This document shows, in pieces, positions 37,342 to 62,172 of a DNA stretch of 64,000 nt. A program made the position numbers and the translations under genes. The stretch is taken from positions 1,674,001-1,738,000 of the forward strand of contig NZ_CP017812.1 in assembly GCF_001856685.1 (NCBI RefSeq). Direction: 5' to 3'. Origin of the DNA: Boudabousia tangfeifanii (GTDB lineage Bacteria > Actinomycetota > Actinomycetes > Actinomycetales > Actinomycetaceae). Positions within the stretch are counted from its first letter, which is position 1, and the number at the start of each line of letters is the position of its first letter. The notes under the pieces are model-generated. The model was given only the letters and a program-made list of their open reading frames with translations, was not told the origin of the DNA and did no database searches.

Positions 37342-37827
37342 TCAGGGGCAATTGACCTCTACGTTTTCTTGAAATCCAGAGGGGTCACCCATTTTTGCTC
37401 TATTGAGATAATCTGCGAAAACTCTACGAGTCGCATCATCTGCACGCTGTGGACTCATGTATCCCATCTGGGGAACTTTTTCAAGCTGTTTTAATGCGTT
37501 GTTGGCTCTCCCCTTATCTGTTGTATAGGTTTTCAACCATTCTTTTTCCCACGCGCATTCAAAGTACAAAGATGCACGACTGTCGCCGTATCCACTTTGA
37601 TAAGCTCCTCCCTTTTCTTCACCTTCCATTTTATTGGGCGCGATATAACCTTGAGGCCATTCGAGATTTTTAACCGAGTCTTGATACTCTTTTTGGATCT
37701 GATCATAACTAAGAATCTTACGTTCTGATGAAGTCGACTGATCGGATAATTCAGAACTGCATCCACTCGTTCCCAGAATGACGGCAGTGGAAGTAGCTAG
37801 GGCAAGAAATATCTTTATGTATTTCAT
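37342..37827 (-). CDS. Putative lipoprotein of cargo cassette 1
   Basis: A 161-residue exported lipoprotein. The N-terminus (KIFLALATSTAVILGTSGC) has a lipobox LGTSGC, so Cys23 would be acylated and the protein tethered outside the membrane. The rest is soluble and charged, with two further Cys (YFECAWEKEW and the C-terminal NCP). I do not recognise the family. It ends the five-gene run that begins with the secreted protein at 41023 and starts 30 bp after the permease stop. In bacteriocin clusters small lipoproteins of this kind often give self-protection, which is only a guess here. Confidence 0.7.
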   Translation of the reverse strand: MKYIKIFLALATSTAVILGTSGCSSELSDQSTSSERKILSYDQIQKEYQDSVKNLEWPQGYIAPNKMEGEEKGGAYQSGYGDSRASLYFECAWEKEWLKTYTTDKGRANNALKQLEKVPQMGYMSPQRADDATRRVFADYLNRAKMGDPSGFQENVEVNCP

Positions 37828-37857
37828 TTTGCAACCTTTCGAAGTGATTAGATAGTT

Positions 37858-39060
37858 TTATCTTAATGCCAATGCTGGTTCTAGTCGCGCCGCCTTTATC
37901 GCAGGAAGTATGCTTCCGAGAATTGCCGTTATTGTCGCTGCCAAAACCGCATAGACCGCTGCCGCATAGGGATACAAGGGAGGGTCGATAGGTGAGCCAA
38001 CTGGCAGCACAAAAGGGATCAATTGGATGAGTAATATTGAGAATATCACTGCAATTAGCGACACGACCACGGCAAGCAAAATCGATGATCCTAATACCAG
38101 CCACGCGACTGAACTTCGACTTGCCCCTAATGCACGTCGAATTAGCAATTCATGTGATCGCTGTTCTAAAGTTGATAAGCCAATATTAATAAGACCAATC
38201 ATTGAGACTATTAGCAAAAGCAATGCTGTGCTGAAAAATGACATCTGAATAACATACAAAACACTGGCATATGATTGCCCCGAATCCACCCTAGAAATCT
38301 CATCTGCCTTGCCACCTATAGAGTCCGATAGTTTGTCATTCAAGAATGAGACTTTTTCTTCTTTAGAAGTGCTATTTGAAGTATCATGCCAAAGAACACT
38401 CCCGCTATCCGTTTCTAACAAATGGGGTATTAAAGAACTTATGCCAGCTATATTAAGATATATTCGAGCATCTGGGACACCATCGTTTACAACGCCTACT
38501 ACGGGAATTGGCGTAGGATTCAGCGAGTTTTTATTCGCAACAAACGCAAATTGTCGATACGGGAAAACCTCATTTGCAGACTGATTAACAACAGCCTCCA
38601 AGCGGGGAAAGACATTCTCATTTTCTAACCATCGTCCTTTTAACAATGGCAGCCTGTAAATGTAATTATATTTACTTGAAATATAAATAGGGTCCACGTT
38701 ACGAGGCGAAGACATGATTTCCCTAATTTCTTGTTGATTTGGAGCTGCTTTCGTCCCAACACCAAAAGTCAACGCTTGTTTCGGGTTTAAAACTAAAGCC
38801 AAATTAGCTTCAGGAACGTCAATACTATTTAGGAATCGTGCTAACAATTGTGGATTCGCTAAACCTCTAGCAGTAATCGAAACCCGGTATGTAGGGTCCC
38901 TACCATAGAGTTGCTCAGTGGTTCCCAATAAATAGGAACGTCCAATCGTACCAACCAGCACTGAACAAATTATCGCGACAATACCAATGAACATCGACAA
39001 CCCTGTCAATGTTGTACGCATCGGAGCTACTTTAAGATCTTTCCATAACATCCGCAGCAT
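37858..39060 (-). CDS. MacB/FtsX-type ABC permease of cargo cassette 1
   Basis: A 400-residue permease with one N-terminal membrane helix (TTLTGLSMFIGIVAIICSVL), a large extracytoplasmic domain of about 230 residues and three C-terminal helices. IGLSTLEQRSHELLIRRALGASRSS is the cytoplasmic coupling segment typical of MacB/FtsX proteins. Such transporters act as mechanotransducers or efflux pumps for peptides and antibiotics, working with the ATPase and adaptor encoded directly upstream. It overlaps the ATPase gene by 29 bp, and its own ribosome site GGAAGG lies in that gene. Confidence 0.85.
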   Translation of the reverse strand: MLRMLWKDLKVAPMRTTLTGLSMFIGIVAIICSVLVGTIGRSYLLGTTEQLYGRDPTYRVSITARGLANPQLLARFLNSIDVPEANLALVLNPKQALTFGVGTKAAPNQQEIREIMSSPRNVDPIYISSKYNYIYRLPLLKGRWLENENVFPRLEAVVNQSANEVFPYRQFAFVANKNSLNPTPIPVVGVVNDGVPDARIYLNIAGISSLIPHLLETDSGSVLWHDTSNSTSKEEKVSFLNDKLSDSIGGKADEISRVDSGQSYASVLYVIQMSFFSTALLLLIVSMIGLINIGLSTLEQRSHELLIRRALGASRSSVAWLVLGSSILLAVVVSLIAVIFSILLIQLIPFVLPVGSPIDPPLYPYAAAVYAVLAATITAILGSILPAIKAARLEPALALR

Positions 39061-39736
39061 GCATTATCCTTCCCTGAGACATAACAAAGGTATGGTCACA
39101 TGTCGTAGCTAGTTCGGAATCATGCGTTACCAGCAGAAGCGTGGTCTGCATTTGTGAAACTAATTTATGTAATATAGCCATTACTTGCGTACTTGTAGAT
39201 GTATCTAGCGCACCTGTAGGCTCATCACAAATTAACAGTTTTGGACTAGTAACTAACGCTCTCGCAATTGCCACCCGTTGTTGCTCACCTCCAGATAACT
39301 TGCCTGGAAATTCATGCGCACGGGCATTAAGGCCAACTTGCATTAAAGCATGATTTATCAATCGTTTTCGAATCCTAGGTGTAGGGCGATCGGGAAGATA
39401 CATCAATGCCAGCTCAACATTCTCAAAAACGTTTAAATGCCTAATCAAAGAATAATTCTGAAAAACAAACCCTATGCTTTCAGCCCTCAGTTCTGATAAA
39501 TTACGGTCTTTTAGTGTCGCAACATCAGTGCCTTGATAAATAAACCTTCCAGTATAGGCAGCGTTAAGGAGACCAACGATAGACGCCAAAGATGTTTTAC
39601 CCGAACCAGACTTACCTACTAAAGCATAGCTTTTACCAACCTCAAGCTCGAGCGACACACTGTCAACGGTTCGTAGTATTTGACCGTTGCCTAGCTCAAC
39701 TTCTGCCGATACGTTTGTTAACGACACTAACGACAT
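39032..39736 (-). CDS. MacB/LolD-type ABC ATPase of cargo cassette 1
   Basis: A 234-residue ATP-binding subunit: Walker [15 protein letters not shown]-loop [12 protein letters not shown], signature [15 protein letters not shown], Walker [13 protein letters not shown] and the switch His in VTHDSE. The EPTGALD form is characteristic of the MacB/LolD branch. It begins four bases after the adaptor gene stop. Together with the adaptor and permease it forms a MacAB-like exporter for a Gram-positive envelope. Confidence 0.92.
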
Positions 39737-39740
39737 ATTT

Positions 39741-40616
39741 CTACTCTCGCGGATCTAGATTTGGGGCAATTGCGCTTATTTTTTCTCCTTCTTTCAACCC
39801 TGAGGTAATCTCAATAAAAGCTCCGTCATTAACCCCCAAACCTACTTCCACAGCTTCAGCTTTCCCCGTACTAATTAAAGTAACTTTCCCTTTAAAGGCG
39901 CGGCCTGCAACGGCGCTTATAGGCACAGCTAGAACGTTATTACGTTTAACACCATGAAGAACTAATGTAGCTTGCTGGCCAGTACGAACGGGTACAGACT
40001 TATCAATTAAACACAAAAAGCCACCAGGGTTACTTATGGAGTTGCCATTTTCGGATATAGCACCACTCTCCGATCCGTTCCCCTCAGAATTTTGAGCTAA
40101 CACCAAAGCTCCGCATTCTGATGGCCCTAGTCCATTTTGAATTTGAAACGACCCCTGGACACCAGAGGCTTCTCCTAGGCCAGATGCAGATTCATCTTGA
40201 AACGCCAACGAGAACCCCTCATATCTAAGTTCAACTACCGGGAATCGACTTGGTAAATCTGTAGAAGCATCTGAAATCTTGACAACTTTTGCATCTACGG
40301 GTGAGACTAACTGAACATCACTATTCAAAGCTAATACATCACCTTTTTTGACTATAGAACCCACCGGCACCTTGGGAACAAAAGATCCTTGTTTACTCGT
40401 TTCAACAATAAAATTTGAAACCGACTCTACAGACGAATGGGTGGAATACGTTGCAACAAGATCTTTTTTCTCTACAGTTAGCACAGCACTCTTGCTAACA
40501 TCTCGACTGGAGTTTTCTGCAAGTTCCCCACTTGTGGTGTCGGCACCGCAACCACTGATTACGAGTGCCGACACCAGCAAGCAGAAAGCAAGCTTACTTA
40601 GCTTTGCAACTTTCAC
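39741..40616 (-). CDS. MacA-like adaptor lipoprotein of cargo cassette 1
   Basis: A 291-residue exported protein with a lipobox (SALVISGC, Cys23). It has a split biotinyl-lipoyl-like region (PKVPVGSIVKKGDVLAL and LVSPVDAKVVKI) and a C-terminal barrel with NVLAVPISAVAGRAFKGKVTLI and VEVGLGVNDGAFIEITSGLKEGEKI. This is the order of HlyD/MacA adaptors. The helical hairpin of Gram-negative forms is missing and replaced by a Ser/Gly/Asn-rich insert with two Cys. It follows the secreted-protein gene by 14 bp. Confidence 0.8.
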   Translation of the reverse strand: MKVAKLSKLAFCLLVSALVISGCGADTTSGELAENSSRDVSKSAVLTVEKKDLVATYSTHSSVESVSNFIVETSKQGSFVPKVPVGSIVKKGDVLALNSDVQLVSPVDAKVVKISDASTDLPSRFPVVELRYEGFSLAFQDESASGLGEASGVQGSFQIQNGLGPSECGALVLAQNSEGNGSESGAISENGNSISNPGGFLCLIDKSVPVRTGQQATLVLHGVKRNNVLAVPISAVAGRAFKGKVTLISTGKAEAVEVGLGVNDGAFIEITSGLKEGEKISAIAPNLDPRE

Positions 40617-40630
40617 TGCACTGAACCCAA

Positions 40631-41023
40631 TCAGTAAGTGAGATCTCCGCCCCAGTTGATGTCACACCACCAGCTGCAGGCCTTCATTCTTCCCTGGAAA
40701 GCGAAACGAGTATTCTTCTTAACCCTATCCCAGGATTTCGCACCAACCGCATTCCACTGCAAGGTATCGGTGAATTGCGGTCCACCAGATACCTTCATAT
40801 TACGCAACCCAAGCCGAAGATGCCCTGACGGCATGTCGTTAATGCTGAGACTGATAGGACCATCATAGGTGTGCGTACGAGTGTAATCGTATTTCACAAG
40901 GGAACCCGACTTGTTCAGCTGTCCACCGACATACGAGTTGTCAGCGTACGCAAGCCCGGTTCCACCAATCGCAAGCAGCAAGGCGGTAGTACCTGCCACA
41001 ATTGGCATTCGTAACTTTTTCAT
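40631..41023 (-). CDS. Small secreted protein of cargo cassette 1 (candidate bacteriocin-like effector)
   Basis: A 130-residue precursor with a Sec signal peptide (KKLRMPIVAGTTALLLAI...GLAYA) and a mature part of about 103 residues. The mature part is rich in Gly, Ser, Thr, Tyr and aromatic residues, with a C-terminal disulfide candidate in KACSWWCDINWGG. The real start is ATG 41023, behind GGAGGG; upstream codons are not coding. It is not a recognised family. Position directly before a dedicated MacAB-like exporter and a lipoprotein suggests the cluster handles or defends against this protein. The cassette-2 protein at 60061-60462 has the same size and layout but little visible sequence similarity. 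Confidence 0.75.
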   Translation of the reverse strand: MKKLRMPIVAGTTALLLAIGGTGLAYADNSYVGGQLNKSGSLVKYDYTRTHTYDGPISLSINDMPSGHLRLGLRNMKVSGGPQFTDTLQWNAVGAKSWDRVKKNTRFAFQGRMKACSWWCDINWGGDLTY

Positions 41024-41080
41024 GTTTCCCTCCATCATTGGCTGAAAATAGTGTGTAGAAAGATAACTTCCCACGTGCTT

Positions 41081-41121
41081 AGTGTAGCACAAATCACCCG
41101 CATGTGTCTACAGTTACACAT
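41081..41121 (-). promoter_or_regulatory. Promoter and inverted repeat upstream of cargo cassette 1
   Basis: On the minus strand TAGACA (41105-41110) and TACACT (41081-41086) are 18 bp apart. ATGTGT-N8-ACACAT (41102-41121) overlaps the -35 box and could bind a repressor. The cassette therefore probably has its own transcription, separate from the phage late operon. Confidence 0.5.
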
Positions 41122-49627: not shown

Positions 49628-50350
49628 ATGGGTTTTTGGTCTCGACTACTCAGCTTGGAAAATCCTGATACGGTCGATAAATCAATGAAAAATATCCCCA
49701 TAAGGGGTGAAATCGGATACTACGGTCTTGAGGATTGGTGGTTACATGAACTTAATGAGTCAGAACGAAAGCTCATCATCAATACCTACAAACCAATGGG
49801 TACATCTAATTCAAAATCCACACTCTTAATGAATGAAGTAAAGTCATCGCAAACTACTGCATTTTGGTTGTCAGTTTTAGCTGGATGGTTTAAGCCGAAC
49901 GACCCCGAGCAGTCTAGATTGATCCTGAAGATTGCTGATAAAGCTTGGCAAGTTAAGGATGACCTATCACCAGCGACCGGAGACGACGCGATTTTTTCAA
50001 AGCATCTAGCCCTTGGGGCCTTGGCAGAAATTTATTATCGTTTTCGTGAAAATCCACTACTTCTTGAACGTTGCATAGCTGCCGCTCGGATGCAAGTAGA
50101 AATGCAGTCAGAGGCAATGAAAGCCCACATTAGGCAAGAAAAGCGTCTTGCCGCACCTGGAAAGAAAAACCAACCAATTATTTATCCCAGTCACAAAGGG
50201 TTCAAAAGGCTGGCAATTATTCTTGAAAAAGAAAAACGCTATGAAGACGCCCTTGAACTGCTGGAGGAAGCTGCAACTAGTAAATGGGATGGCGATTGGG
50301 ATAAACGAATCGAGCGAATCAAAAAGAAAGCTCGCTCCCAAAAATGTTGA
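49628..50350 (+). CDS. Plus-strand moron gene of unknown function
   Basis: A 240-residue protein on the opposite strand to all surrounding late genes, AT-richer than they are, with AAGGAG before its ATG. It begins MGFWSRLLSLENPDTVDKSM and is soluble and helical. The C-terminal half (KGFKRLAIILEKEKRYEDALELLEEAA) resembles a TPR-like helix pair. I know no family for it. It occupies the gap between the tail chaperone and tape measure genes, ending eight bases from the gpGT frameshift stop. Such independently placed genes in prophages often alter the lysogen. Confidence 0.7.
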   Translation: MGFWSRLLSLENPDTVDKSMKNIPIRGEIGYYGLEDWWLHELNESERKLIINTYKPMGTSNSKSTLLMNEVKSSQTTAFWLSVLAGWFKPNDPEQSRLILKIADKAWQVKDDLSPATGDDAIFSKHLALGALAEIYYRFRENPLLLERCIAAARMQVEMQSEAMKAHIRQEKRLAAPGKKNQPIIYPSHKGFKRLAIILEKEKRYEDALELLEEAATSKWDGDWDKRIERIKKKARSQKC

Positions 50351-51986: not shown

Positions 51987-52418
51987 TCACCCGCCTTTCA
52001 TCCGGTTGTGCAGGACTTGTTTCATCGCTTCTAAGCAGGCACGGCGAGATGAGGCTCTGGCTGGGCGCAGGAATGGGCGTGGCGTTTGCCCGGCCTTGCC
52101 GTATTCGAGGACATTGGCGATCAGGGCGTTCGGCCTATCATCCCTGCGGTTCTCGGTGAAGCCGACTTTCACATTGTGATCACCCCGCCTATCCACCCTC
52201 GCCGGAGACAAACCGAGCGCACCAAGGAGTTGGCCGGTAGAGCGAGACTTGCCCTTCGTGCCAGAACCGATTGCGGCACTCAGGTTGCCTCTTACTTTAG
52301 CTTCGACTACGCGGCCGCCGGCAGTGACAGCCTCTTCGGCGATGTCGGGCATTGCTGTGGTGATGTGTGCGAATTGTTCCAACGTTTTGGTGGGCATTTT
52401 GATGCTGCTTTTAGCCAC
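51987..52418 (-). CDS. HK97 gp10-like head-tail protein
   Basis: A 143-residue basic protein. The VTAGGRVVEAKVRGNLSAAIG stretch, a Gly-Lys-Ser-rich loop and VKVGFTENRRDDRPNALIANVLEYG...PRPFLRPA are the pattern of the HK97-gp10 family, in which the PRPFLRPA motif near the C-terminus is conserved. It acts at the head-tail junction. It overlaps the upstream connector by eight bases. Confidence 0.85.
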   Translation of the reverse strand: MAKSSIKMPTKTLEQFAHITTAMPDIAEEAVTAGGRVVEAKVRGNLSAAIGSGTKGKSRSTGQLLGALGLSPARVDRRGDHNVKVGFTENRRDDRPNALIANVLEYGKAGQTPRPFLRPARASSRRACLEAMKQVLHNRMKGG

Positions 52419-52743
52419 GGTGCACCTCCTTGCGTAGGAACAGGATGAGGTAGCGGCCTCGGTTTTTCACGTTCTCAATCCCCATGATCGTGAACGTGTT
52501 TCGTTCGATGAACACCTGCCCTCCGACCACTGGGGTGAACCCCTTGGGGGTGCGGATGGTTGCCATGGCATCGACTTGGTGAAAACCAGCAAGGTTCGCC
52601 CACCTAGTCGTAGCAGAACGCTCCTCAAACGCCCCACGCCACTCATGACCACTGCGCGAAGCCGGGCGGGCAAACCCCTCCCTATCGGCAATCATCTGCG
52701 AATCCAAGAAAAGCATGCGCGTACTTAAACGACCAACACCCAT
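52411..52743 (-). CDS. Head closure (stopper) protein
   Basis: A 110-residue protein in the connector block. It has a beta-barrel-like composition (ADREGFARPASRSGHEWRGAF, QVFIERNTFTIMGIENVKNRGRYLILFL). Position between the gp6-like and gp10-like genes is that of SPP1 gp16/head-closure proteins. ATG 52743 follows GGAGG; an ATG two codons upstream is possible. Confidence 0.65.
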   Translation of the reverse strand: MGVGRLSTRMLFLDSQMIADREGFARPASRSGHEWRGAFEERSATTRWANLAGFHQVDAMATIRTPKGFTPVVGGQVFIERNTFTIMGIENVKNRGRYLILFLRKEVHRG

Positions 52744-52764
52744 CACCACTCACCTCCCTCTTTT

Positions 52765-53097
52765 TTAGACTTTCCAATCGCGATCCAGAATCAGTAGCCG
52801 GTTGACGGTCTCCCACACCCGGGCGGCGGCATGCGTGTTATCAGCGAAAAACCCGCCGGTCGAGCCGTCCCTGGATTCGTAGAAGTGGGTGGCCAGCATG
52901 ATCACCGCACGGTATGTCGACTCCGACAACGGGTGATGCTCGTAGTGGCCTGGGGGCAGGTGCTGGTAGGAGGTGGCGTAATCCAATCCCGCCTGAATCA
53001 GTTCACCCAGCAACTCATCATCCTGGGAATGCTCAAGCACCAGATTGGCCTTGAGCGCCGACAGGAACTCGCCTTGGTTAAACATGCGTGACATGGC
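52765..53097 (-). CDS. Head-tail connector adaptor, gp6/gp15-like
   Basis: A helical protein of about 110 residues directly after the capsid gene in transcription order. FLSALKANLVLEHSQDDELLGELIQAGLDYATSYQ and STYRAVIMLATHFYESRDG match the pattern of DNA-packaging/head-tail connector proteins (Phage_gp6). The start at ATG 53097 is likelier than 53121; a further ATG lies three codons on. Confidence 0.8.
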   Translation of the reverse strand, partial: AMSRMFNQGEFLSALKANLVLEHSQDDELLGELIQAGLDYATSYQHLPPGHYEHHPLSESTYRAVIMLATHFYESRDGSTGGFFADNTHAAARVWETVNRLLILDRDWKV

Positions 53098-53132
53098 TTT
53101 ACGCCACCTCCCCTCCAACAACTGGCAGTGGG

Positions 53133-54350
53133 TTACTGCTTCTGAACAAGGACCTTGACGGCTTCAGGCAGAATCAACTTGCCATCCACGCGTTGGGTTG
53201 CCATGAAACCCACCTGCCCCGTCGTCGCAAACAACTCGTTCAAACGCTTGAAAGAGCGGCCCGCACGGTCGGCAATCCAGTAGTAGGACAGGTCACCGAA
53301 GGCCACAGTCTTCGCGCCCGCCTTGAGTTCGGGAACGAAGGAGCTGGTGTGGATGGGGCGGCCAAGGATCATGTCCGGCGCGCTTGCTGTGAGGGCGGGC
53401 TGCCACAGGTACTGGCCCTGATTGTCCTTCAGCTTCCGGATGGCTTTGACTGTGGAGTCGTTGGTCAGCCACACGGCGTTCTTCCGATACGGGGCACGCA
53501 GCGCATAGAACAAGTCAATGAGTTCGTCTGCGGTGATCGCGGTCTGGCCGGCAGCCTTGAGGCCTTCTTCTGCTCCGCCGGTCTTGTGGAAGATACCGGT
53601 GGGCTTATTAGACCCATCCCCAACAAGGAACGCTTCTTCCTCAGCAGCACCGATACGACGGCCGAACTCGTTTGCCAGGTAAGCCTCGATGTTGAACGCA
53701 GAGTCAGCCAGGAGTTCTTCACTGACCTTGATGAAGGTGGAGAGTTTATAAGCCCCCAAGGTGACCTGTTTGAACGCTTCGTCAGATTCTTGGACTGCTG
53801 CGCCTTCGTCGAGCCAGTCGGCCTTACCGTGGGTGGCAACCACCGGGATCTTACGATCACCACTGGTGGTGGTAATCCGCTTAGCCAACCCACGGATGAT
53901 GTTTTCTTCCTGAAGGGCTTCTACGAGGGTGCGTTCGAACTCGTCCGGCACCAAGTAGCCGCCTTCAGTGTCCGCGCCTTCTTTGAGGGCGTTGCGCACT
54001 TCGAAGGGGTTGGTGGCCATGCGCATGGCGTTCCAAAAGTTCTCGCGGTATTCATCCGTAGCCCGGAACGGCACATGCTTATGTCCCTCAGGAGCCACGG
54101 ACCCAGGGGTCATCGCCAAAGGCGCGGCCACCGGCTTAGACAACTGGGTGTCAAGTTCAGCGGCGCGTTCTGCTCGGGCGATCTCGCGGCCGAGGGCTTC
54201 GATTTCGGCTTCCATACGACCATAGGTTTCATCGTCCTCAGCGGTCAGGATGCCGTTGTTCGTGGCCTGGCGCTCGGTGAGGAAGGCCTTGGCTTTCTCC
54301 CAGGTGCTTGCGCGCCGGGTTCGCAGGTCGTTAATCATTGTTGTAGTCAT
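53133..54350 (-). CDS. Major capsid protein, HK97 family
   Basis: A 405-residue capsid protein. The first ~100 residues form a coiled-coil scaffold (delta) domain that the adjacent protease should remove. The HK97 fold follows with GGYLVPDEFERTLVEALQEENIIRGLAK, AFKQVTLGAYKLSTFIKVSEELLADS, EEEAFLVGDGSNKPTGIF and GRPIHTSSFVPE. Order and length are standard for the HK97-like major capsid protein. Confidence 0.95.
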   Translation of the reverse strand: MTTTMINDLRTRRASTWEKAKAFLTERQATNNGILTAEDDETYGRMEAEIEALGREIARAERAAELDTQLSKPVAAPLAMTPGSVAPEGHKHVPFRATDEYRENFWNAMRMATNPFEVRNALKEGADTEGGYLVPDEFERTLVEALQEENIIRGLAKRITTTSGDRKIPVVATHGKADWLDEGAAVQESDEAFKQVTLGAYKLSTFIKVSEELLADSAFNIEAYLANEFGRRIGAAEEEAFLVGDGSNKPTGIFHKTGGAEEGLKAAGQTAITADELIDLFYALRAPYRKNAVWLTNDSTVKAIRKLKDNQGQYLWQPALTASAPDMILGRPIHTSSFVPELKAGAKTVAFGDLSYYWIADRAGRSFKRLNELFATTGQVGFMATQRVDGKLILPEAVKVLVQKQ

Positions 54351-54407: not shown

Positions 54408-55211
54408 CTAGGGCTTCAAGGAATCGAGGGCGGTCAGGAGATTTGAGACCTGCCTGCCAGAGGGCGGCGGATCAGGAGTAACAGGCCCTGCTACCAGTGG
54501 GAGTGGTTCTTGACCACCAGTACGGTCTGCGTTGATGGCATCCAACAGCGAGTTCGTGACGGCACGGCGAGAGAACACCATCGCCGCCAAGGGCTTGTCG
54601 GGCTGGGCGGTTGGGAAAGGGCTGCCAGGGCTGATCAGTCCGTCTGCGAAACCCAGCTCGATGGCCTTGTTCGCGTCCATCCAAGTCTCCGCATTCATCA
54701 ACTCACTAAGCTCCACGCGGCTCAAGTGGCTGCGCAGTTCGTAGGCGTTGAGGATGGATTCTTTGACTTCAGCCAGCATGTTGATAGCGCGGAGCATTTC
54801 CTCGCTGTCGCCGATGGCGGCGGTCATGGGGTTGTGAATCATCATCATCGCCACCGGACTCATCAACACCTCGCTACCCGCCATGGCAATCACACTGGCG
54901 GCGCTGGCTGCGAGGCCGTCAATTTTGACGGTGACGTGCCCTGGGTAGTCCATGAGCATCGAATAAATCTCGGCAGCCGCAATCACATCCCCACCAGGGC
55001 TGTTAATCCACACAACAATGTCGCCATTCCCGCTCATGAGTTCATCGCGGAAAGCGGCCGGTGTGGCCTCGTCTCCGAACCAAGACTCAGGCGCGATCGG
55101 CCCGCGCAGCTCCAGTACGCGTTTGCCATCTGGTGCGGTGGTGTAGTCCCAAAATCGCCTGGCATTATTCAGGGTTTTCGGTGTGGGGTCGGCTCTCATT
55201 GTCGCCGTCAT
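54408..55211 (-). CDS. ClpP-like head maturation protease
   Basis: A 267-residue prohead protease of the ClpP-like class. SPGGDVIAAAEIYSML, the nucleophile region GLAASAASVIAMAGS, the His in MMIHNPMT and the Asp-containing ETWMDANKAIELGFADG match this class. It cleaves the capsid scaffold domain during maturation. ATG 55211 follows GGAGG; the frame continues upstream into portal sequence without a site. The gene overlaps the portal 3' end by 47 bp. Confidence 0.93.
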   Translation of the reverse strand: MTATMRADPTPKTLNNARRFWDYTTAPDGKRVLELRGPIAPESWFGDEATPAAFRDELMSGNGDIVVWINSPGGDVIAAAEIYSMLMDYPGHVTVKIDGLAASAASVIAMAGSEVLMSPVAMMMIHNPMTAAIGDSEEMLRAINMLAEVKESILNAYELRSHLSRVELSELMNAETWMDANKAIELGFADGLISPGSPFPTAQPDKPLAAMVFSRRAVTNSLLDAINADRTGGQEPLPLVAGPVTPDPPPSGRQVSNLLTALDSLKP

Positions 55212-56502
55212 CTGTATCCTCCTTAGGGGCGATCTCTGTTTCTTCCATCGGTTCTCTGGACTGTTGGGTTTGGCGGTGGGTGTAGTAGCTACCCGCTTGG
55301 TTGAGTGGGAGCATGTTGCCGTTGACCAGGTAGAGGTCCCCACCTTGGTCTTCGGGGATGAGGTCGAGGTTTTCGAGTTGGCGGATGTCGTTGGCGCTCA
55401 TCCACCCGTTCTGCCGAGCAACCGCATACCCCTGCATCCGGCTCGCGTAATCCCCACGCAACAGGCCCTCAAGATTGAAGGCGATGGAGTACTTCTCCCG
55501 GTCAGCCCCGGTGAGGAGTGTTTTAGTGAGGGCTTGTTCCCACCTGATCACCCACGGGTCGAGCGTGTATTTCACGAACTCAAGGGACTGCTGCTCAATG
55601 TTGCTGAAACTCGATTTTTCGAGGTCTCCGACCATGTGGGGTGGGATGCGGAAGATACGGGCGATTTCGTTGATCTGGAACTTGCGGGTCTCTAAGAACT
55701 GCGCCTGCTCGGGGCTAATCCCAATCGGCGTGTACTTCATCCCCTCCTCGAGCACCGCGATCTTGCCCGCATTCTCGCTCCCGCCGAAGGTGGACTGCCA
55801 CGACTCGCGCACCCTTGCTGGGTCACGAATCGTGCCCGGATGCTCAAGCACCCCACCAGGCGCGGCCCCGTTGGCAAAGAACCTCGCCCCGTATTCCTCG
55901 CAGGCCAGTCCCATGCCAATCGCGTTCCTAGCCATCTGAATAGGCGAATACCCAACCAGCCCATCAAATCCGAGCCCGGGAATGTGGAGGACATCGGCTG
56001 GGGATAAAACAACCACCGGCGGTTTACCGGCGGTCTGAGGACGATACGTGTACCTGAGCAGCCCGGTGTCGGGGTCACGGTCAACCACCATCTGGGATGG
56101 CAGCAACGGGTAAAGACCGATGACCTCACCCCGGCCGTTGCGGATGACCTGGGCGTAAGCATTACCCCACAGCAGCAGATGGGTCATGAGGGTCTCGCGA
56201 AACACAAACGACGTCATCTCAGCATTCGGCTCATCATGCAACACCCGATACAAAGGATGGCCGACTGCTCTCTCAGAGCCACCAGTGCTGCCTTCACGTT
56301 CTTGATAGAGGTGCAGTGGCAAGGACGCGACGGCTTCGGCCAGGATTCGCACGCATGCGTAGACGGCGGTCATCTGCATCGCAGACCGCTCCGTTACCGA
56401 CTTACCGCTACTAGTTGGAGATGCGAAGAACTCAGTATTGGTCAACGACCAGCTATTGGTCGGCTCCGGTAGTTTGAAGCCGAGCCAAGATAGGAAGCCC
56501 AT
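55165..56502 (-). CDS. Phage portal protein
   Basis: A 445-residue portal protein of the HK97/PBSX-type family, forming the ring through which DNA is packed. Visible are SAMQMTAVYACVRILAEAVASLPLHLYQ, MTHLLLWGNAYAQVIRNGRGEVIGLYPL, GFDGLVGYSPIQMARNAIG and RIPPHMVGDLEKSSFSNIEQQSLEFV, all typical. A Pro/Glu/Asp-rich tail follows. GAAAGGA precedes the ATG. It normally lies next to the terminase gene; here 4 kb of cargo separates them. Confidence 0.95.
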   Translation of the reverse strand: MGFLSWLGFKLPEPTNSWSLTNTEFFASPTSSGKSVTERSAMQMTAVYACVRILAEAVASLPLHLYQEREGSTGGSERAVGHPLYRVLHDEPNAEMTSFVFRETLMTHLLLWGNAYAQVIRNGRGEVIGLYPLLPSQMVVDRDPDTGLLRYTYRPQTAGKPPVVVLSPADVLHIPGLGFDGLVGYSPIQMARNAIGMGLACEEYGARFFANGAAPGGVLEHPGTIRDPARVRESWQSTFGGSENAGKIAVLEEGMKYTPIGISPEQAQFLETRKFQINEIARIFRIPPHMVGDLEKSSFSNIEQQSLEFVKYTLDPWVIRWEQALTKTLLTGADREKYSIAFNLEGLLRGDYASRMQGYAVARQNGWMSANDIRQLENLDLIPEDQGGDLYLVNGNMLPLNQAGSYYTHRQTQQSREPMEETEIAPKEDTDDGDNESRPHTENPE

Positions 56503-56558
56503 GCGTTTATTCCTTTCAGGGAGGACAATGGAAAAAGGAAGCAGCGTGTTTTAGTGCG

Positions 56559-57046
56559 GTGGTGAGTCTGGTGTGGTGGCTAGTAGGAGCCGTACTTGTG
56601 TTGTTCCTTTGGCATGAGGTCGAGGAATACCGAGTTTTGCTGCCATGGATACACCGCAACCGTGAACACCTGCCCGCACTGATGCCGAATCTGAGGCCCC
56701 AAACGGTAGCGTTCACACTGATCGCCCTTGAAGAGTTGACGCTATTGAGCGTGATCGCACTGCTTTTGCCGCCGGTGTGGTTCACGGCCGCCACGATTGC
56801 TACGGATTTTGCCTCGCCGTTCATTGCATCCAGATTCTGGTGACCTACCATCGTGGCTGTTTCCTGCCTCTGTGGTCTGCCCCCATCCAGTTACCGATCG
56901 TGGCACTACTGATATGGGGCATGTCCCATCACCACAGCAGCGGTCTGCTTACCGCCACCCTCATCATGATCGACGCCATGGTACTGAACCTGGTGCTCAT
57001 GCATGCTCTGACCGCCTACAACAGCAGTAGGCTCCGCTGGTCGTAG
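56559..57046 (+). pseudogene. Frameshifted HXXEE-type membrane protein gene
   Basis: The plus strand encodes a membrane protein in two frames. The first (56559-56843) has FLWHEVEEYRVLLPW, an H-x-x-E-E motif, and TFTLIALEELTLL-like helices. The second, which must be entered around 56,800-56,840, continues with AVHCIQILVTYHRGCFLPLWSAP and two more helices to a stop at 57046. HXXEE proteins have just this order: HxxEE, a second E-E, then a His-x-x-Gln/Arg-Tyr/Pro-Gly stretch. A one-base indel would restore the frame. The gene is a passenger, opposite to the late genes, and its end overlaps the duplicated terminase tail. Confidence 0.6.
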
Positions 57047-57171
57047 ACTGACTCGCTAGTGGGGCCTGTTTCGCATCTGATAGCCCGGTCTAGGTCCATG
57101 ATGGTGGCGACGACACCGTCAATCTTCTCGGTGGATTTTTCTTTGTCGGATTTGATGTTCCCAGTTGGGCT
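57016..57171 (-). pseudogene. Duplicate of the 3' end of the terminase gene
   Basis: These 156 bp align without gaps to 60565-60720, the end of the large terminase gene (constant offset 3549). Both copies are in frame to a TAG stop. The copy here reads GNIKSDKEKSTEKIDGVV, then TIMDLDRAIRC, ending QRSLLLL; the intact gene has GNIKPDKEKSTEKIDGVV and ends KRGLLII. By eye about 39 of 49 residues agree. Similarity stops sharply at 57171, beyond which no terminase sequence follows and an in-frame TGA occurs. The two copies bracket cargo cassette 2. Confidence 0.85.
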
Positions 57172-57267
57172 TCAGTGCATACATAAATATTTCAACAGAT
57201 ATTATTGCTATAAGGGTAGTTATTTCATTAGCAGTGTTCAGTGGAAGTATTAGAAGATCTACTCCTA

Positions 57268-57939
57268 TTAGACGCTGGTCAAGATGGGTTTAATGCCGCG
57301 GAAAGTATACACATATGTGAATACGCAAACAGTCCACAAACTGACCGAAAAAATACCTCCATACATAAAGGTTGATTCGAAATAATGTAGCGCGCCACTT
57401 GGCATCCAATACAACATACCGCTCGACTGTCCCAGCCAATAAAGTACCACCCACACCGGCAAACTTAGCCGCCCGTATTTGTGCCCAATTAGGGCTATGG
57501 TAAGCATCGTCAAGCTTAGGATAATAATCCCTTGTAGGCCGCTAAACATCTGAAACCCGACGCCATGTGAGAAGAATTCTTTATCAAATACCAGCTGACT
57601 AGGACGGAATTTAAATCTGGGAGCACTCCAGATACTCCACATCACCCCGAGCGGAGATACCAACAAAATCAGAACAGAAATAAACAAAATTTCGGTGAAA
57701 GCTCGCAGTCGCATTGGGCGAGGGCTATTCAACTCCACCCAGGGCATTCGCGGCAAAAAACAAAGCAAAGCTACCCATGTGAACACCAATACTGCGATGG
57801 TAGACGGCTTCACGGCAACAACAAAACCTGATGAGGGCAGATAAAATATAATCCCTACTTGGTGCGCCACGTAAACAGCTAATACCCATGCGCATACACT
57901 AACAATCACCGGATAGAGAAAGCCAGGTCTTGGTTTCAT
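57268..57939 (-). CDS. Membrane protein of cargo cassette 2
   Basis: A 223-residue protein with six hydrophobic segments and no soluble domain. It is the last gene of the run beginning at 60462 and lies 12 bp after the larger permease. The family is not recognised. The likeliest role is the second membrane subunit of the ABC transporter formed with the ATPase at 59304-60047. Confidence 0.65.
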   Translation of the reverse strand: MKPRPGFLYPVIVSVCAWVLAVYVAHQVGIIFYLPSSGFVVAVKPSTIAVLVFTWVALLCFLPRMPWVELNSPRPMRLRAFTEILFISVLILLVSPLGVMWSIWSAPRFKFRPSQLVFDKEFFSHGVGFQMFSGLQGIIILSLTMLTIALIGHKYGRLSLPVWVVLYWLGQSSGMLYWMPSGALHYFESTFMYGGIFSVSLWTVCVFTYVYTFRGIKPILTSV

Positions 57940-57951
57940 CTACTCAATCCC

Positions 57952-59286
57952 TTACCTGAAATTTTCCTTACTTAACTTGCAGGTGGCGATGGAGTCTCGA
58001 TGCTTAAGTAACCATTGCTGATATTCGGCTGTGGACAATTTAGTCAGGAAGGCCAGTTGTGGGCTTTCATCAGCCGAAATTGTGTGTTCGTTTTCCTGCC
58101 CAGTTTCCTCGTTGACACCATAAACGAGATCCATTGGCAGCTTCGCACGCAACAGCAGGGAATTTCGCAAATCGTCATAAAACTGAGCTTGATTTGAGCA
58201 AGCGCTGGCATGCCCGCTACTTGCGAAAATGTTGTAGGCAATATTGCTAAAAGTCACCTGCTCCCATTCTTGGCGAGTTTTGAAGTTACCAGGATTTTGC
58301 AGAGTAAGCGGGCCAATAATCGCACCTTCAGCAAAACCGATTGGGGTTTTAGGGTCAACCCAAGCGTTGGGTAACTGTGCAAATAATTGCTGGAAATGCT
58401 CCTTCAAACTAGGTATTAGTGTTGCTTGGGCAATAGGCAAGCACAAACGATACTCGCCTATTACCTCACACTTTTGACGATCGTCCTCGTACTTGGTTAC
58501 TACCGGAGACATCAAAATGCTGGACGCAAACACAAGCGCAGGCGCCAGAAGATATACTAAACCGACAATGGCAAAGCTCCTCCGCCCCGTAAGCGCATAG
58601 GAATTGAAACGCATCAGCGCATACACCCCGCAAACACTTAGCAGAACGAAGTAAACCAAACGAATCAGCTCAGTGGACATCACAAAATCAGTGGGGTAAC
58701 TCACTAGGCTAGTACCCCACATAAACGCTAGCGAGAGGCTCGACTTACCGGTTCCTGCCAATAAATATACGTTCATAATAACCGGCACAAAAACCACTAA
58801 CGCAGACAAAAGTGGGGTAAGCACGAGCTTCCATTTAGGCGGCAACAGGTTAGCTAAAACCATCGCCAATGTTGCCGCAGCAAACAACGAGATTATCAAA
58901 ACAAGAAAAGCTATCAAGTCTATGAGCCTAAACCTCACTGCTGCGCTGCGTACTAACATATAGCCCCAGCCGAGTATAGGTCCAACTACTGCTGCGCCCC
59001 ATATCGTAAATGCAAAAGGAAGGATTCGACGGGTAGGCGAGAGCACTGTGAGCGGCCCAATCACCACTGACTTTTTACCTTGCGGGTCAAAAAATATGGC
59101 AGCTGCCAACCCGATAATCACCACAGGTACGATTAGCTGCTCTTGCAGCTGAGGAATTACCACTCGTAAATCTGGGTTCGGCCAGGTGGGAATGAGTGCC
59201 ACCGATTGCACCAGACACACCAGAGCTAAAAAGGCAGTCAGACCCAATAGCCACCAGGTTTTTATAGGGAAAATCAGTCCACGCAT
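57952..59286 (-). CDS. ABC-2-like permease of cargo cassette 2 with large extracytoplasmic domain
   Basis: A 444-residue membrane protein with about seven hydrophobic segments in the first 270 residues. A C-terminal soluble domain of about 170 residues follows the last helix, with Cys in KCEVIGEYRLCLP, GHASACSNQ and SIATCKLS that could form two disulfides outside the cell. It lies 17 bp after the ATPase gene. No family is recognised, but an ATPase of the BcrA type directly before it makes a transporter role likely. The extracellular Cys-rich domain could bind the small secreted protein encoded first in the cassette. Confidence 0.7.
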   Translation of the reverse strand: MRGLIFPIKTWWLLGLTAFLALVCLVQSVALIPTWPNPDLRVVIPQLQEQLIVPVVIIGLAAAIFFDPQGKKSVVIGPLTVLSPTRRILPFAFTIWGAAVVGPILGWGYMLVRSAAVRFRLIDLIAFLVLIISLFAAATLAMVLANLLPPKWKLVLTPLLSALVVFVPVIMNVYLLAGTGKSSLSLAFMWGTSLVSYPTDFVMSTELIRLVYFVLLSVCGVYALMRFNSYALTGRRSFAIVGLVYLLAPALVFASSILMSPVVTKYEDDRQKCEVIGEYRLCLPIAQATLIPSLKEHFQQLFAQLPNAWVDPKTPIGFAEGAIIGPLTLQNPGNFKTRQEWEQVTFSNIAYNIFASSGHASACSNQAQFYDDLRNSLLLRAKLPMDLVYGVNEETGQENEHTISADESPQLAFLTKLSTAEYQQWLLKHRDSIATCKLSKENFR

Positions 59287-59303
59287 CAGCCTTAGCCTTT
59301 CCC

Positions 59304-60047
59304 CTACTGCCTATTCGGAATACGCGCCAAAGCCGCCTGATACCCACATTCGAGGATGTTCAACCCTGGTGAAGGATTGCGCTCGCCCAAAGCATTAAGG
59401 TCATCCACTGTACCGTCAAAAGCAATCAGTCCTGAGTTCATCACCAACACACGGCTGGCCACTGCCGCTAAATCCTCTACTAAATGCGTAGAAATCAAAA
59501 TCACAGATTCACGCGACAATTCAAGCAGAAGGTTACGGATACCGGCCCGTTGTAGCGGATCTAAACCCACCGTCGGCTCGTCCAACAGAGCAACGCGAGG
59601 GCGATGCACCAGCGCACAGGCAATACCTAGGCGCTGGCGCATCCCACCCGAAAGTGAACGAGCTAACACGTTAGCTTTTCCACCCAAATGGGTAATCTCA
59701 AGAATCTCACTAATGGCTTTACCAGCTTCATTCCTATCGATACCATGCGCCCACGCTGCATAAATGAGGTTGCGCTCGACTGTAACAAAATCCATCACAT
59801 CGAAATGCTGTGGTAAATAGCCTAGCAGCCGTTTTTCTGAGCGATCCATTCGAGTTAGAGACTTACCGTTGATAAGGATTTCGCCTTTCTGCAAAGGTAA
59901 CATTCCCACCACAGATTTCATCAACGTTGATTTGCCCGCACCGTTAGGTCCCAAAAGCCCGTAAACCCCAGGCTCGGCGCGTAGCGAAACCCCTTTTAGT
60001 GCATGAAAATTGCGATAGGAAAAATGCAGATTGCGAATTTCAATCAT
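59304..60047 (-). CDS. BcrA/CcmA-type ABC ATPase of cargo cassette 2
   Basis: A 247-residue ATPase: Walker A GLLGPNGAGKSTLMK, Q-loop LGYLPQHFDVM, signature LSGGMRQRLGIACAL, Walker B VALLDEPTVGLDP and switch His in STHLVED. This branch (drug, bacteriocin or lantibiotic export and immunity) differs from the MacB-type ATPase of cassette 1, so the two cassettes are not duplicates. The gene follows the secreted-protein gene by 13 bp. Confidence 0.92.
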   Translation of the reverse strand: MIEIRNLHFSYRNFHALKGVSLRAEPGVYGLLGPNGAGKSTLMKSVVGMLPLQKGEILINGKSLTRMDRSEKRLLGYLPQHFDVMDFVTVERNLIYAAWAHGIDRNEAGKAISEILEITHLGGKANVLARSLSGGMRQRLGIACALVHRPRVALLDEPTVGLDPLQRAGIRNLLLELSRESVILISTHLVEDLAAVASRVLVMNSGLIAFDGTVDDLNALGERNPSPGLNILECGYQAALARIPNRQ

Positions 60048-60060
60048 GCGAAATCACGGC

Positions 60061-60462
60061 CTACAGTTGAATGTCAGGCGAATACTTCACTGCTCCAGTT
60101 GAAGACTCAACATAAGTGTACACATATGCGCCTTTACCAGCAGTTGAAGTTTTCGCAGAAACATCGAGTTGAATCGTATTTACTGGGCCCTTCTGATTAA
60201 CTGCCAAGCGAGTGTCTGGCCCCCAGTTGTTAGTCCACATGCTAACCCGGACCCAGTCCACCGTATTGATACACCCATGCCGTCCACCAATACCTTTTAC
60301 GTAACTACCTGAAATGGTAGGACGGTAACTGTAAAGTTCACAAGGCACATGCGCCCTGCTGCGCTCGGCAGCATTAGCTATTGAAATACCACCCACAGTA
60401 CCGATAGTCAACGCAGTAATCAATGCAAGTCCCGAGAACTTCCTAATTGCTGAATACTTCAT
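60061..60462 (-). CDS. Small secreted protein of cargo cassette 2 (candidate bacteriocin-like effector)
   Basis: A 133-residue precursor. The signal peptide (KYSAIRKFSGLALITALTI...ISIANA) is followed by a mature part of about 101 residues with two Cys (CELYSYRPTISGS and GGRHGCINTVDWV). The remainder is beta-rich with Thr, Ser, Val and Tyr. AAGGAGC precedes the ATG. It has its own strong promoter and heads a run with an ABC transporter. I do not recognise the family; it is not clearly a lactococcin 972 homologue. Size and arrangement parallel the secreted protein of cassette 1. Confidence 0.75.
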   Translation of the reverse strand: MKYSAIRKFSGLALITALTIGTVGGISIANAAERSRAHVPCELYSYRPTISGSYVKGIGGRHGCINTVDWVRVSMWTNNWGPDTRLAVNQKGPVNTIQLDVSAKTSTAGKGAYVYTYVESSTGAVKYSPDIQL

Positions 60463-60509
60463 TGTTAGCTCCTTTGCTATTCAAATTAATTGGAAGTATT
60501 TGCATTTTC

Positions 60510-60538
60510 ATTGTACTTTACATCATCTAATAAATCAA
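60510..60538 (-). promoter_or_regulatory. Promoter of cargo cassette 2
   Basis: On the minus strand TTGATT (60533-60538) and TACAAT (60510-60515) are exactly 17 bp apart in an AT-rich 100-bp gap. The start codon follows after about 40 bases. Confidence 0.7.
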
Positions 60539-60564
60539 TCATGATTAAATACTTTTCATGTTTT

Positions 60565-62172
60565 CTATATAATCAGCAATCCTCGCTTATCGTAGACGCT
60601 CTCGCTGGCTGGCCCGGCCCCGCATCTGATCGCGCGGTCTAGGCCCATGATGGTGGCCACCACGCCGTCAATCTTCTCGGTGGATTTTTCTTTGTCGGGT
60701 TTGATGTTCCCGGCGGGGTCGGTGCGGACGAAGATGTTGTCCATCATCCACCTAAGCACCGGGTGACCATCATGGGTCAACTTGCCCTCGAGCACCAGCT
60801 TCATCAGCTCCTTAGTCGGCGGAGACATGTCTTTGAAGCCTTGCCCGAAGGGCACGACGGTTAGGCCCATGTGGTCGAGGTTTTGGGTCATTTGGACTGC
60901 GCCCCACCGGTCGAACGCCACCTCACGCAAATCAAACTCCTCACTGATTTGCTCGATGGCTTGTTCAATCGCCGCGTAGTGGACCACGTTCCCTTCAGTG
61001 AGGTTCAAGAAGCCTTGACGTGCCCAAAGGTCGTATGGAACCCGGTCACGTAAGACTCGGCGGTCGATGTTGTCTTCTGGGATCCAAAAATGCGGCACCA
61101 CAAAGTACGGCTCATCAACGTCTTCTGGTGGGAAGACTTGAACGAACGCCGTGATATCCGTGGTGGATGAGAGGTCGAGACCGCCGTAGCAGACCCGGCC
61201 CCGCAGTTGCTCTGGCCGGAAGTCACGCTTGCATGCGTCCCACGCTGCCATGGGCATCCACCGCACGGACTGTTTCACCCACTGGTTCAACCTGAGTTGG
61301 CGGAAGGAGTTTTCTTCGGCCGGGTTCTGCTTTGCCGACTCACACGCTGCCCGCACTTTGTCGATACCGACCGTGATGCCTAGGGATGGGTTGGCTTTCG
61401 CCCACACAGCCTCATTCGTCCAGTCATCGTCGGTGTCTGCGCCGTAGATGACTGGGTAGAACGTCGGGTCAATCTTGCGGCCCTCGAGGATGTCCTGAGC
61501 CTTCTGGTGCGTCTCGTAGCAAATCGAGTTGGTGTCTGACCCGGCTGTGGTGATCAGGAAGTAGAGGGGTTGGGTGCGCGCATCCCCGGAGCCTTTGGTC
61601 ATGACGTCGAATAGGCGGCGGTCGGGCTGGGTGTGCAGCTCGTCAAAGACGACGCCGTGAATGTTGAACCCGTGCTTCGAGTAGGCCTCGGCAGAGAGAA
61701 CTTGGTAGAAGCTGTTGGTGGGCTGGAAGACGATGCGCTTCTGGCTGGCCAGAATCTTCACCCGGCGTGAGAGGGCCGGTGAGTTGCGGACCATGTCTGC
61801 TGCGACCTCGAACACGATGGAGGCTTGCTGTCGGTCTGCAGCGCACCCGTAGACCTCCGCGCGCTCCTCACCATCCCCACACGTGAGCAACAAGGCCACG
61901 GCTGCGGCGAGCTCTGATTTGCCCATCTTTTTGGGTATCTCAACGTAGGCGGTGTTGAACTGCCGGTATCCATCGGGTTTGAGGGTGCCGAACAGGTCAC
62001 GAATGATCTGCTCTTGCCAGTCGATCAGTTCGAAGGGTTTGCCTGCCCAGCGGCCCTTGGTGTGGGTCAGGGCCTGGATGAACGCGACCGCATAATCAGC
62101 AGCCTTGCGGTCGTAGTGGGAGCCTTCGGCCATGAAACGAGTCGGCTCATAGTTCTCAAGGCGACGCATCAT
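60565..62172 (-). CDS. Phage terminase large subunit
   Basis: A 535-residue packaging motor. The ATPase part shows the terminase Walker A-like VEIPKKMGKSELAAAVALLL, the Walker B region NIHGVVFDELHTQPDRRLFDVM and the coupling motif LYFLITTAGSD. The nuclease part has CYGGLDLSSTTDITAFV and EVAFDRWGAVQ. This is the Terminase_1/HK97-like group. No small terminase gene is seen directly upstream in the window. Its last 52 codons, with stop, are duplicated at 57016-57171. Confidence 0.95.
   Translation of the reverse strand: MMRRLENYEPTRFMAEGSHYDRKAADYAVAFIQALTHTKGRWAGKPFELIDWQEQIIRDLFGTLKPDGYRQFNTAYVEIPKKMGKSELAAAVALLLTCGDGEERAEVYGCAADRQQASIVFEVAADMVRNSPALSRRVKILASQKRIVFQPTNSFYQVLSAEAYSKHGFNIHGVVFDELHTQPDRRLFDVMTKGSGDARTQPLYFLITTAGSDTNSICYETHQKAQDILEGRKIDPTFYPVIYGADTDDDWTNEAVWAKANPSLGITVGIDKVRAACESAKQNPAEENSFRQLRLNQWVKQSVRWMPMAAWDACKRDFRPEQLRGRVCYGGLDLSSTTDITAFVQVFPPEDVDEPYFVVPHFWIPEDNIDRRVLRDRVPYDLWARQGFLNLTEGNVVHYAAIEQAIEQISEEFDLREVAFDRWGAVQMTQNLDHMGLTVVPFGQGFKDMSPPTKELMKLVLEGKLTHDGHPVLRWMMDNIFVRTDPAGNIKPDKEKSTEKIDGVVATIMGLDRAIRCGAGPASESVYDKRGLLII

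Follow-up and report, generated by a model that had tools for sequence, protein, structure and literature searches.

How does a phage take on new genes beside its packaging genes with packaging unharmed? The question is raised by a prophage of Boudabousia tangfeifanii lying in a 64,000-nucleotide stretch of its chromosome (contig NZ_CP017812.1, positions 1,674,001 to 1,738,000; hereafter the window), in which the 3' end of the gene for the large terminase subunit, TerL, occurs twice: once as the end of the whole gene (copy 1), and once as a leftover end with no TerL attached (copy 2), with a cassette of four genes between the two copies and the portal gene beyond copy 2 (Table 1). We read this arrangement, with a probability of roughly 0.8, as a scar left when related phages recombined at a slot for cargo between TerL and portal, along the steps proposed below.

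The duplicated terminase end

Copy 1 (60565-60720) and copy 2 (57016-57171) align without gaps at a constant offset of 3549, with 122 of 156 bases equal, and the next best ungapped placement of the 156-base TerL end on the plus strand of the window gives 67 matches; by blastn the two copies are 84% identical over 128 bases (E = 1.7e-36). The TerL frame is open to the stop in both, and the protein read from copy 2 is 80% identical to TerL over 50 residues. The initial annotation had claimed such a repeat at this offset, in frame to a stop and with about 80% protein identity, all of which is borne out; its further claim that similarity ends on one side only is not, since copy 2 gives way to chance-level similarity at either end, one limit being the stop codon and the other lying near 57175.

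Comparison with relatives indicates which of the two ends is older. Past copy 2 the window continues with a convergent HXXEE gene and then the portal gene, and in the prophages of three other genomes (G086, G102 and G114) TerL leads directly to a convergent 165-amino-acid (aa) HXXEE gene and then to portal, with no cassette and, in the stretch fetched, a single TerL end. Because HXXEE adjoins copy 2 in the window but adjoins TerL in these cassette-free prophages, copy 2 is taken as the older, resident end; the whole TerL and the cassette are read as the newer part, and copy 2 with HXXEE as the older slot. The HXXEE gene carries a frameshift in the window and a stop in loci L176 and L177, and is open in L005, G102, G086 and G114 (in the last two as an open reading frame).

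A tandem duplication of the TerL end within one phage, with cargo put between the copies later, would lead one to expect two in-frame ends equally well, and the structure is common to all three prophages that carry the cassette. We consider it very improbable, given that copy 2 is the resident end by the position of HXXEE in cassette-free prophages, that the corresponding tail in L005 is fused to portal codons, and that none of 163 loci showed two adjacent ends in a phage lacking the cassette. This locus set comprised the window, two further stretches of its own genome, and the best 80 loci of each of two scans.

Copy 2 is under relaxed constraint: over 47 codons compared between the window and L177, 8 are changed and 8 silently different in copy 2, as against 2 changed and 7 silent in copy 1. 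No stop interrupts copy 2 in the window, L085, L175-L177 or L005, and convergent slot genes extend over about 11-27 bases of the TerL end, both of which might be expected had copy 2 been kept for a function, for example as the HXXEE 3' end or as a site for processing or termination of RNA. This is the least probable of the alternatives that we weighed, as HXXEE needs only about 15 bases and is itself broken in the cassette prophages, the codon changes are as given above, and the scan lists no terminator-like site inside 57016-57171.

Recent exchange of the cassette

A search of 200 genomes of the family Actinomycetaceae with the 444-aa cassette protein as query, together with IMG/VR, places the cassette in three prophages: that of the window, that of genome G073, and IMG/VR 2788500612. 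The G073 prophage is identical over 14,277 bases to IMG/VR contig 2788500611. At fourfold sites the window and G073 differ at 81 of 241 positions in TerL (33.6%), 60 of 201 in portal (29.9%) and 58 of 199 in the capsid gene (29.1%), whereas the four cargo genes differ at 2/73, 3/128, 6/222 and 3/104 (2.7, 2.3, 2.7 and 2.9%). Since divergence is 2-3% in the cargo and 29-34% in the backbone genes, the cassette must have been swapped recently.

Change-point fits place the left end of the exchanged tract inside TerL and the right end inside the fourth cargo gene (Table 1). It follows from the left breakpoint that the last 11-21 codons of TerL moved along with the cargo, and to this extent the proposal that the cassette supplies a replacement terminase tail stands. 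Copy 2 was also considered as an arm of this recent exchange and was rejected, because the right breakpoint (57370-57385) lies in cargo 4. Between the two IMG/VR prophages there are 6 differences in a 5420-base block reaching from inside TerL to inside portal, and 64/873 and 62/715 differences just outside it, from which we conclude that here the slot was transferred entire, by crossovers in TerL and in portal. Elsewhere in the window, 1123 bases (52020-53142) show no difference at all from the G073 prophage while adjacent genes are 12-17% different, and this is a further recent exchange tract.

A separate event with other cargo

In Actinomycetaceae bacterium zg-1166 (L005) a whole TerL is followed by a TfoX-like gene and then by a TerL tail, HXXEE and portal. 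The second prophage of the window's own genome, whose TerL is 96% like that of the window's prophage, has the order TerL, TfoX, portal (TfoX_N, 1.9e-9) with no second tail. It represents the putative donor type, and 11 letters, TCAAACCCGAC, are present there in both the TerL tail and the portal start. Coming from upstream of TfoX, the L005 sequence passes about 11 codons of the portal start and then enters the TerL tail directly, and its joint reads TCAAACCCAAC; recombination at a short shared sequence would most simply account for it. Because the joints of L005 and the window lie at different TerL codons, two events are counted. L005, L006 and the second prophage of the window's genome all have the slot without the window's cassette.

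In genome G116 (L246:4589-12541), TerL residues 2-400 and 327-530 are separated by about 6 kb holding metabolic-looking genes, the overlapping TerL stretch being 74% identical over 224 bases. This is a similar event, but one that broke TerL.

The second event also bears on whether the cassette is a site-specific mobile element directed at the 3' end of the terminase gene, which it would repair with a copy of its own, as integrase elements do at tRNA genes. Such an element would account for the in-frame duplication, for the presence of the last 11-21 TerL codons within the exchanged tract, and for a second cargo ahead of a TerL tail in L005. However, Pfam and NCBIfam reveal no recombinase among the four cargo genes, three of which have no match at all; the joints in the window and L005 fall at different TerL codons, with portal sequence at that of L005; the copies are 78% identical (122 of 156 bases) with no identical end common to both, such as forms the core of integrase-type elements; and cargo-sized gaps follow TerL in 26 of 29 family loci, mostly with one tail. 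We therefore hold this explanation to be more improbable still than a tandem duplication, and as a mechanism the suggested entry of a cassette into the terminase end is unsupported, given the missing recombinase, the missing identical end and the breakpoint in cargo 4.

Proposed history

Under recombination between related phages at the slot, the ancestor would have carried TerL, a convergent HXXEE gene overlapping the TerL end, and portal. DNA of a related phage, bringing its own TerL and new cargo, would have been joined inside the resident TerL tail, reducing the resident TerL to about its last 50 codons (copy 2), still next to HXXEE; because the incoming TerL was whole, packaging would have been kept. 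HXXEE, as the older cargo, would have decayed afterwards, and the cassette would later have been re-exchanged between such phages by a crossover in the TerL tail. The cassette-free order, the separate second event, the decay of HXXEE and the recent exchange with a breakpoint in TerL all appear from comparison of the sequences; co-residence or co-infection of the partner phages, and the illegitimate nature of the joint, we infer. Recombination of two related phages had been the other possibility raised in the initial annotation, and the cassette-free TerL-HXXEE order, the low divergence of the cassette and the separate zg-1166 event speak in its favor; relatives in which both copies form part of normal genes without cargo were not found in the loci examined.

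Several observations weigh against this account. Pairwise counts over 47 codons tie copy 2 clearly to no single TerL. The recent exchange does not end in copy 2, and the L005 joint is one letter off the shared 11 letters. The HXXEE genes of G086, G102 and G114 are just 45% identical to that of L005, so that these three cassette-free prophages stand for the ancestral order and not for the actual recipient. Finally, three of the four cargo proteins, whose function is read from context, have no family match in Pfam or NCBIfam.

The slot between TerL and portal in the family

Among the 163 loci, more than 400 bases separate TerL and portal in 48, and portal is unmatched in 4; two TerL tails in the present arrangement occur in 3 (the window, L005 and L085). 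A narrower set comprised 29 family loci with a near-complete TerL, the best loci among 66 family genomes with a match. In 26 of these the gap is at least 375 bases (including L210, whose gap was mismeasured by the script and found to be ~526 bases when measured separately), and in the other three (L213, L229, L231) it is 26-73 bases. Eleven of the 26 long slots hold the same small membrane gene or a variant of it, and in L228 and L230 a clear gene was not seen in the long slot; because of this the 26 are not independent. The cargo kinds include HXXEE, TfoX, ArsP-type permease with phosphatase-like and thioredoxin-like genes, GNAT-like and lipoprotein (the last three named being calls by eye), and unknowns. 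We read the gap between TerL and portal as a cargo slot in these HK97-type prophages.

Prophage remnants around the slot

Remnants of TerL were sought in 213 family genomes with equal 108-aa queries from both TerL ends, the equal queries serving as a check on a detection artefact for orphan tails, and a partner was sought within 4 kb. Of the TerL rows kept, 55 were N-terminal and 87 C-terminal; without a partner were 1 N-terminal and 33 C-terminal rows. At most 26 of these 33 orphan tails are independent: two rows represent one G048 locus, one comes from the split TerL of G116, G054, G141 and G024 are one locus, as are G154 and G101, a single event accounts for the copy-2 rows of both G000 and G073, and 285 bases recur at 94% between the remnants G000:615983 and G073:C1:22931. 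The C-terminal list omitted 7 rows, 6 of them under 50% identity and one from G182 (70%, 27 residues) that, if kept, would add one orphan tail; the other TerL-end list also omitted 7 rows (2 under 45% identity and 5 that were further pieces of loci present in the list).

If the interval serves as a slot, portal starts should be skewed in the same way. Here 18 of 73 head rows lacked the later part and 4 of 59 later-part rows lacked the head, although contig breaks may explain three of the head rows (G060, G088) and three of the four later-part rows. One portal list omitted rows below 50%, a second piece from G048 (50%), an 18-residue second piece from G107 and a 24-residue match from G097; the other omitted every row at 44% or less.

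Some remnants retain open cargo genes: in L241 one whose secreted product bears an Ntox35 toxin domain (E = 1.2e-6), an ArsP permease in L259 (4e-66), and in L244 an Abi-like gene (3e-5, just below the Pfam cut-off) with a PADLOC match to PD-T4-5 (3.5e-9). Clear slot cargo was not seen in remnants such as L205, L237 and L248. The L259 remnant, in genome G090 (L259:4274-8817), is a 2797-base block, starting at about TerL residue 413 and ending at portal residue 54, that is 98.6% identical to the slot of a prophage in another genus (G032). Its ArsP-type slot is flanked on one side by a transposase gene and on the other by a repeat of the last 433 bases of the element (99.8%), apparently within a glycoside hydrolase gene, the hydrolase and the ISL3 element type being assigned by eye; the whole has apparently been mobilised as a single unit. 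We infer that the remnants are retained by selection, with biased deletion and transport by insertion elements as alternatives.

Taken further, the gap between TerL and portal could be a loading dock for prophages of the whole family, with TerL ends and portal starts as homology arms, cargo swapped between phages and even genera, and chromosomes that keep the dock of dead prophages for later phages to reload; we regard this wider picture as possible but doubtful.

Several other TerL loci were observed. At L166:9966-10347, in the window's own genome, a TerL tail abuts an inner piece of portal, and 285 bases recur at 94% in G073 (L247). In L238:5975-6806, L243:6853-7688 and L251:6185-6589, each TerL remnant has behind it a gene for a secreted-looking protein (127-215 aa), and these proteins are mutually alike by eye; L238 and L243 have in addition a membrane-type protein of 81-83 aa. 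There is no significant Pfam match, and the secreted-looking proteins possibly represent one bacteriocin type. In four further genomes (G050:C1:647479-650109, G034:C18:53898-56519, and also G108 and G174) the TerL match is interrupted near residue 85 and resumes ~1 kb on, and in G050 and G034 a single open frame, 962 or 890 aa long, takes in both TerL parts, an arrangement that looks intein-like.

Relation to known systems

Phage morons have been defined as additional genes lying between a pair of genes that are neighbours in relatives (PMC3029335). Like them, the cassette lies between near-adjoining genes, TerL and portal, is absent from relatives, and differs from the phage in base composition, its G+C being lower (45-51% in most 500-base bins of 57000-60499 against 58-60% in phage genes). 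Unlike them, it consists of four genes including an ABC transporter, its promoter is unproven and a terminator was not found in the scan, and the leftover TerL end reveals the direction of loading. The slot also resembles hotspots of the kind described in P2 and P4 phages, small loci of ~1-5 kb, set between two conserved phage genes, whose content turns over at a high rate and for which exchange by homologous recombination has been proposed; turnover is likewise seen here in the many gene kinds of the 26 long family slots. The borders (TerL and portal) and the hosts differ, however, and most of the cargo has no defence match, including the window cassette (no PADLOC match for the two of its proteins tried). 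In how it works, the slot matches known morons and phage hotspots.

In the actinobacterial Gordonia phage GMA6, genes likewise lie between terminase and portal (PMC4524720), but they are reported as one departure in gene order, and slot turnover and a duplicated TerL end are not described in the available parts of that report. Together with a moron between the terminase subunit genes in CSP3 and a partial gene copy next to the whole gene in a Campylobacter prophage, GMA6 indicates that single parts of the picture are already in print. Mosaic joints are generally ascribed to illegitimate or short-homology recombination (PMC3029335), and the present joints agree with them in preserving gene order and lying close to gene ends; here, by contrast, part of the replaced gene was left, which is why old and new ends can be distinguished. 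An account of the domestication of decayed prophages finds cargo less conserved than structural genes (PMC6379469); in both cases hosts keep pieces of dead prophages, but here the remnants gather around a cargo slot. Searches of open PMC texts gave no description of this TerL-portal slot, of such a scar, of a legible loading direction or of the remnant skew.

The locus is a readable fossil of cargo entry into a phage with packaging unharmed, with its old and new ends still distinguishable. The interval between TerL and portal is, in addition, an easily recognised place for finding unknown antibacterial, defence and transport genes in Actinomycetaceae prophages. The bias of remnants toward TerL ends and portal starts suggests that hosts retain the intervening DNA, which can be tested in other families.

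Genes of the cassette

The four cargo genes encode a secreted-looking protein, an ABC ATPase and two membrane-type proteins (Table 1), secretion and membrane character being judged by eye throughout; about 100 bases separate cargo 4 from copy 2. The secreted-looking protein and the ABC transporter named in the initial annotation are accordingly present, and a promoter-like site lies ahead of them; the scan counted 4 such sites as compared with 6.1 in shuffles, and because this count is not above shuffles, the promoter-like site is not significant alone, although a promoter upstream of the cargo remains plausible. No terminator-like site was listed on the minus strand from the cargo stop to portal in a simple scan, an absence that is weak evidence.

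Table 1. Features of the TerL-portal slot in the window
Feature	Position	Strand	Evidence
TerL, large terminase subunit, 535 aa, whole	60565..62172	-	TerL_nuclease 4e-49, TerL_ATPase 1e-20
Copy 1: TerL 3' end, part of the whole gene	60565..60720	-	122/156 bases equal to copy 2
Left breakpoint of the exchanged tract (window vs G073), inside TerL	60601..60630		change-point fit, best 60616
Promoter-like site ahead of cargo	60510..60538	-	TTGATT-17-TACAAT, 9/12
Cargo 1: 133-aa secreted-looking protein	60061..60462	-	no Pfam/NCBIfam match
Cargo 2: ABC transporter ATPase	59304..60047	-	ABC_tran 6.6e-30
Cargo 3: 444-aa membrane-type protein	57952..59286	-	no Pfam/NCBIfam match; homologues 98%, 46%
Cargo 4: 223-aa membrane-type protein	57268..57939	-	no Pfam/NCBIfam match
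Right breakpoint of the exchanged tract (window vs G073), inside cargo 4	57370..57385		change-point fit, best 57370
Copy 2: leftover TerL 3' end, no TerL attached	57016..57171	-	sequence match to copy 1, open frame
HXXEE gene remnant, convergent, older slot cargo, frameshifted	56520..57030	+	HXXEE 3e-7 (first part)
Portal protein, other slot border	55165..56502	-	portal_HK97 9e-93

The 133-aa protein has a single homologue besides itself, from Boudabousia marimammalium, and a second homologue round gave no new sequence. A first guess by eye that it is of the lactococcin 972 type was dropped for lack of a Pfam or NCBIfam family match, and a structure prediction from the two-sequence alignment (mean pLDDT, the predicted local distance difference test score, 41) was not used further. 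The 98% homologue of the 444-aa protein is recorded from Boudabousia liubingyangii, and no relatives of this protein were found in phage or plasmid records. In genome G019 a four-gene set in the same order is 48-72% identical to the cassette, and the TerL, portal and capsid of the window's phage have no match within the 19.9 kb fetched around it, in agreement with a host origin of the cassette. The four genes are possibly bacteria-killing, and their context suggests an antibacterial protein accompanied by genes for its export or for immunity, a cassette that would probably be expressed in the lysogen.

A second cargo set lies on the minus strand of the window (37342-41092), between a lysin-like gene and two recombinases, and comprises a secreted-looking 153-aa protein, an accessory protein, an ABC ATPase, an FtsX/MacB-type permease and a lipoprotein-like gene, the first and last of which have no Pfam match. 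Two adjacent recombinase-like genes, of serine type by eye, stand at one prophage end (33559-36431, minus strand). Amid the tail genes, a 240-aa gene without a clear family lies on the opposite strand (49628-50350, plus strand), and in the second prophage of the same genome about 440 bases of different sequence take its place.

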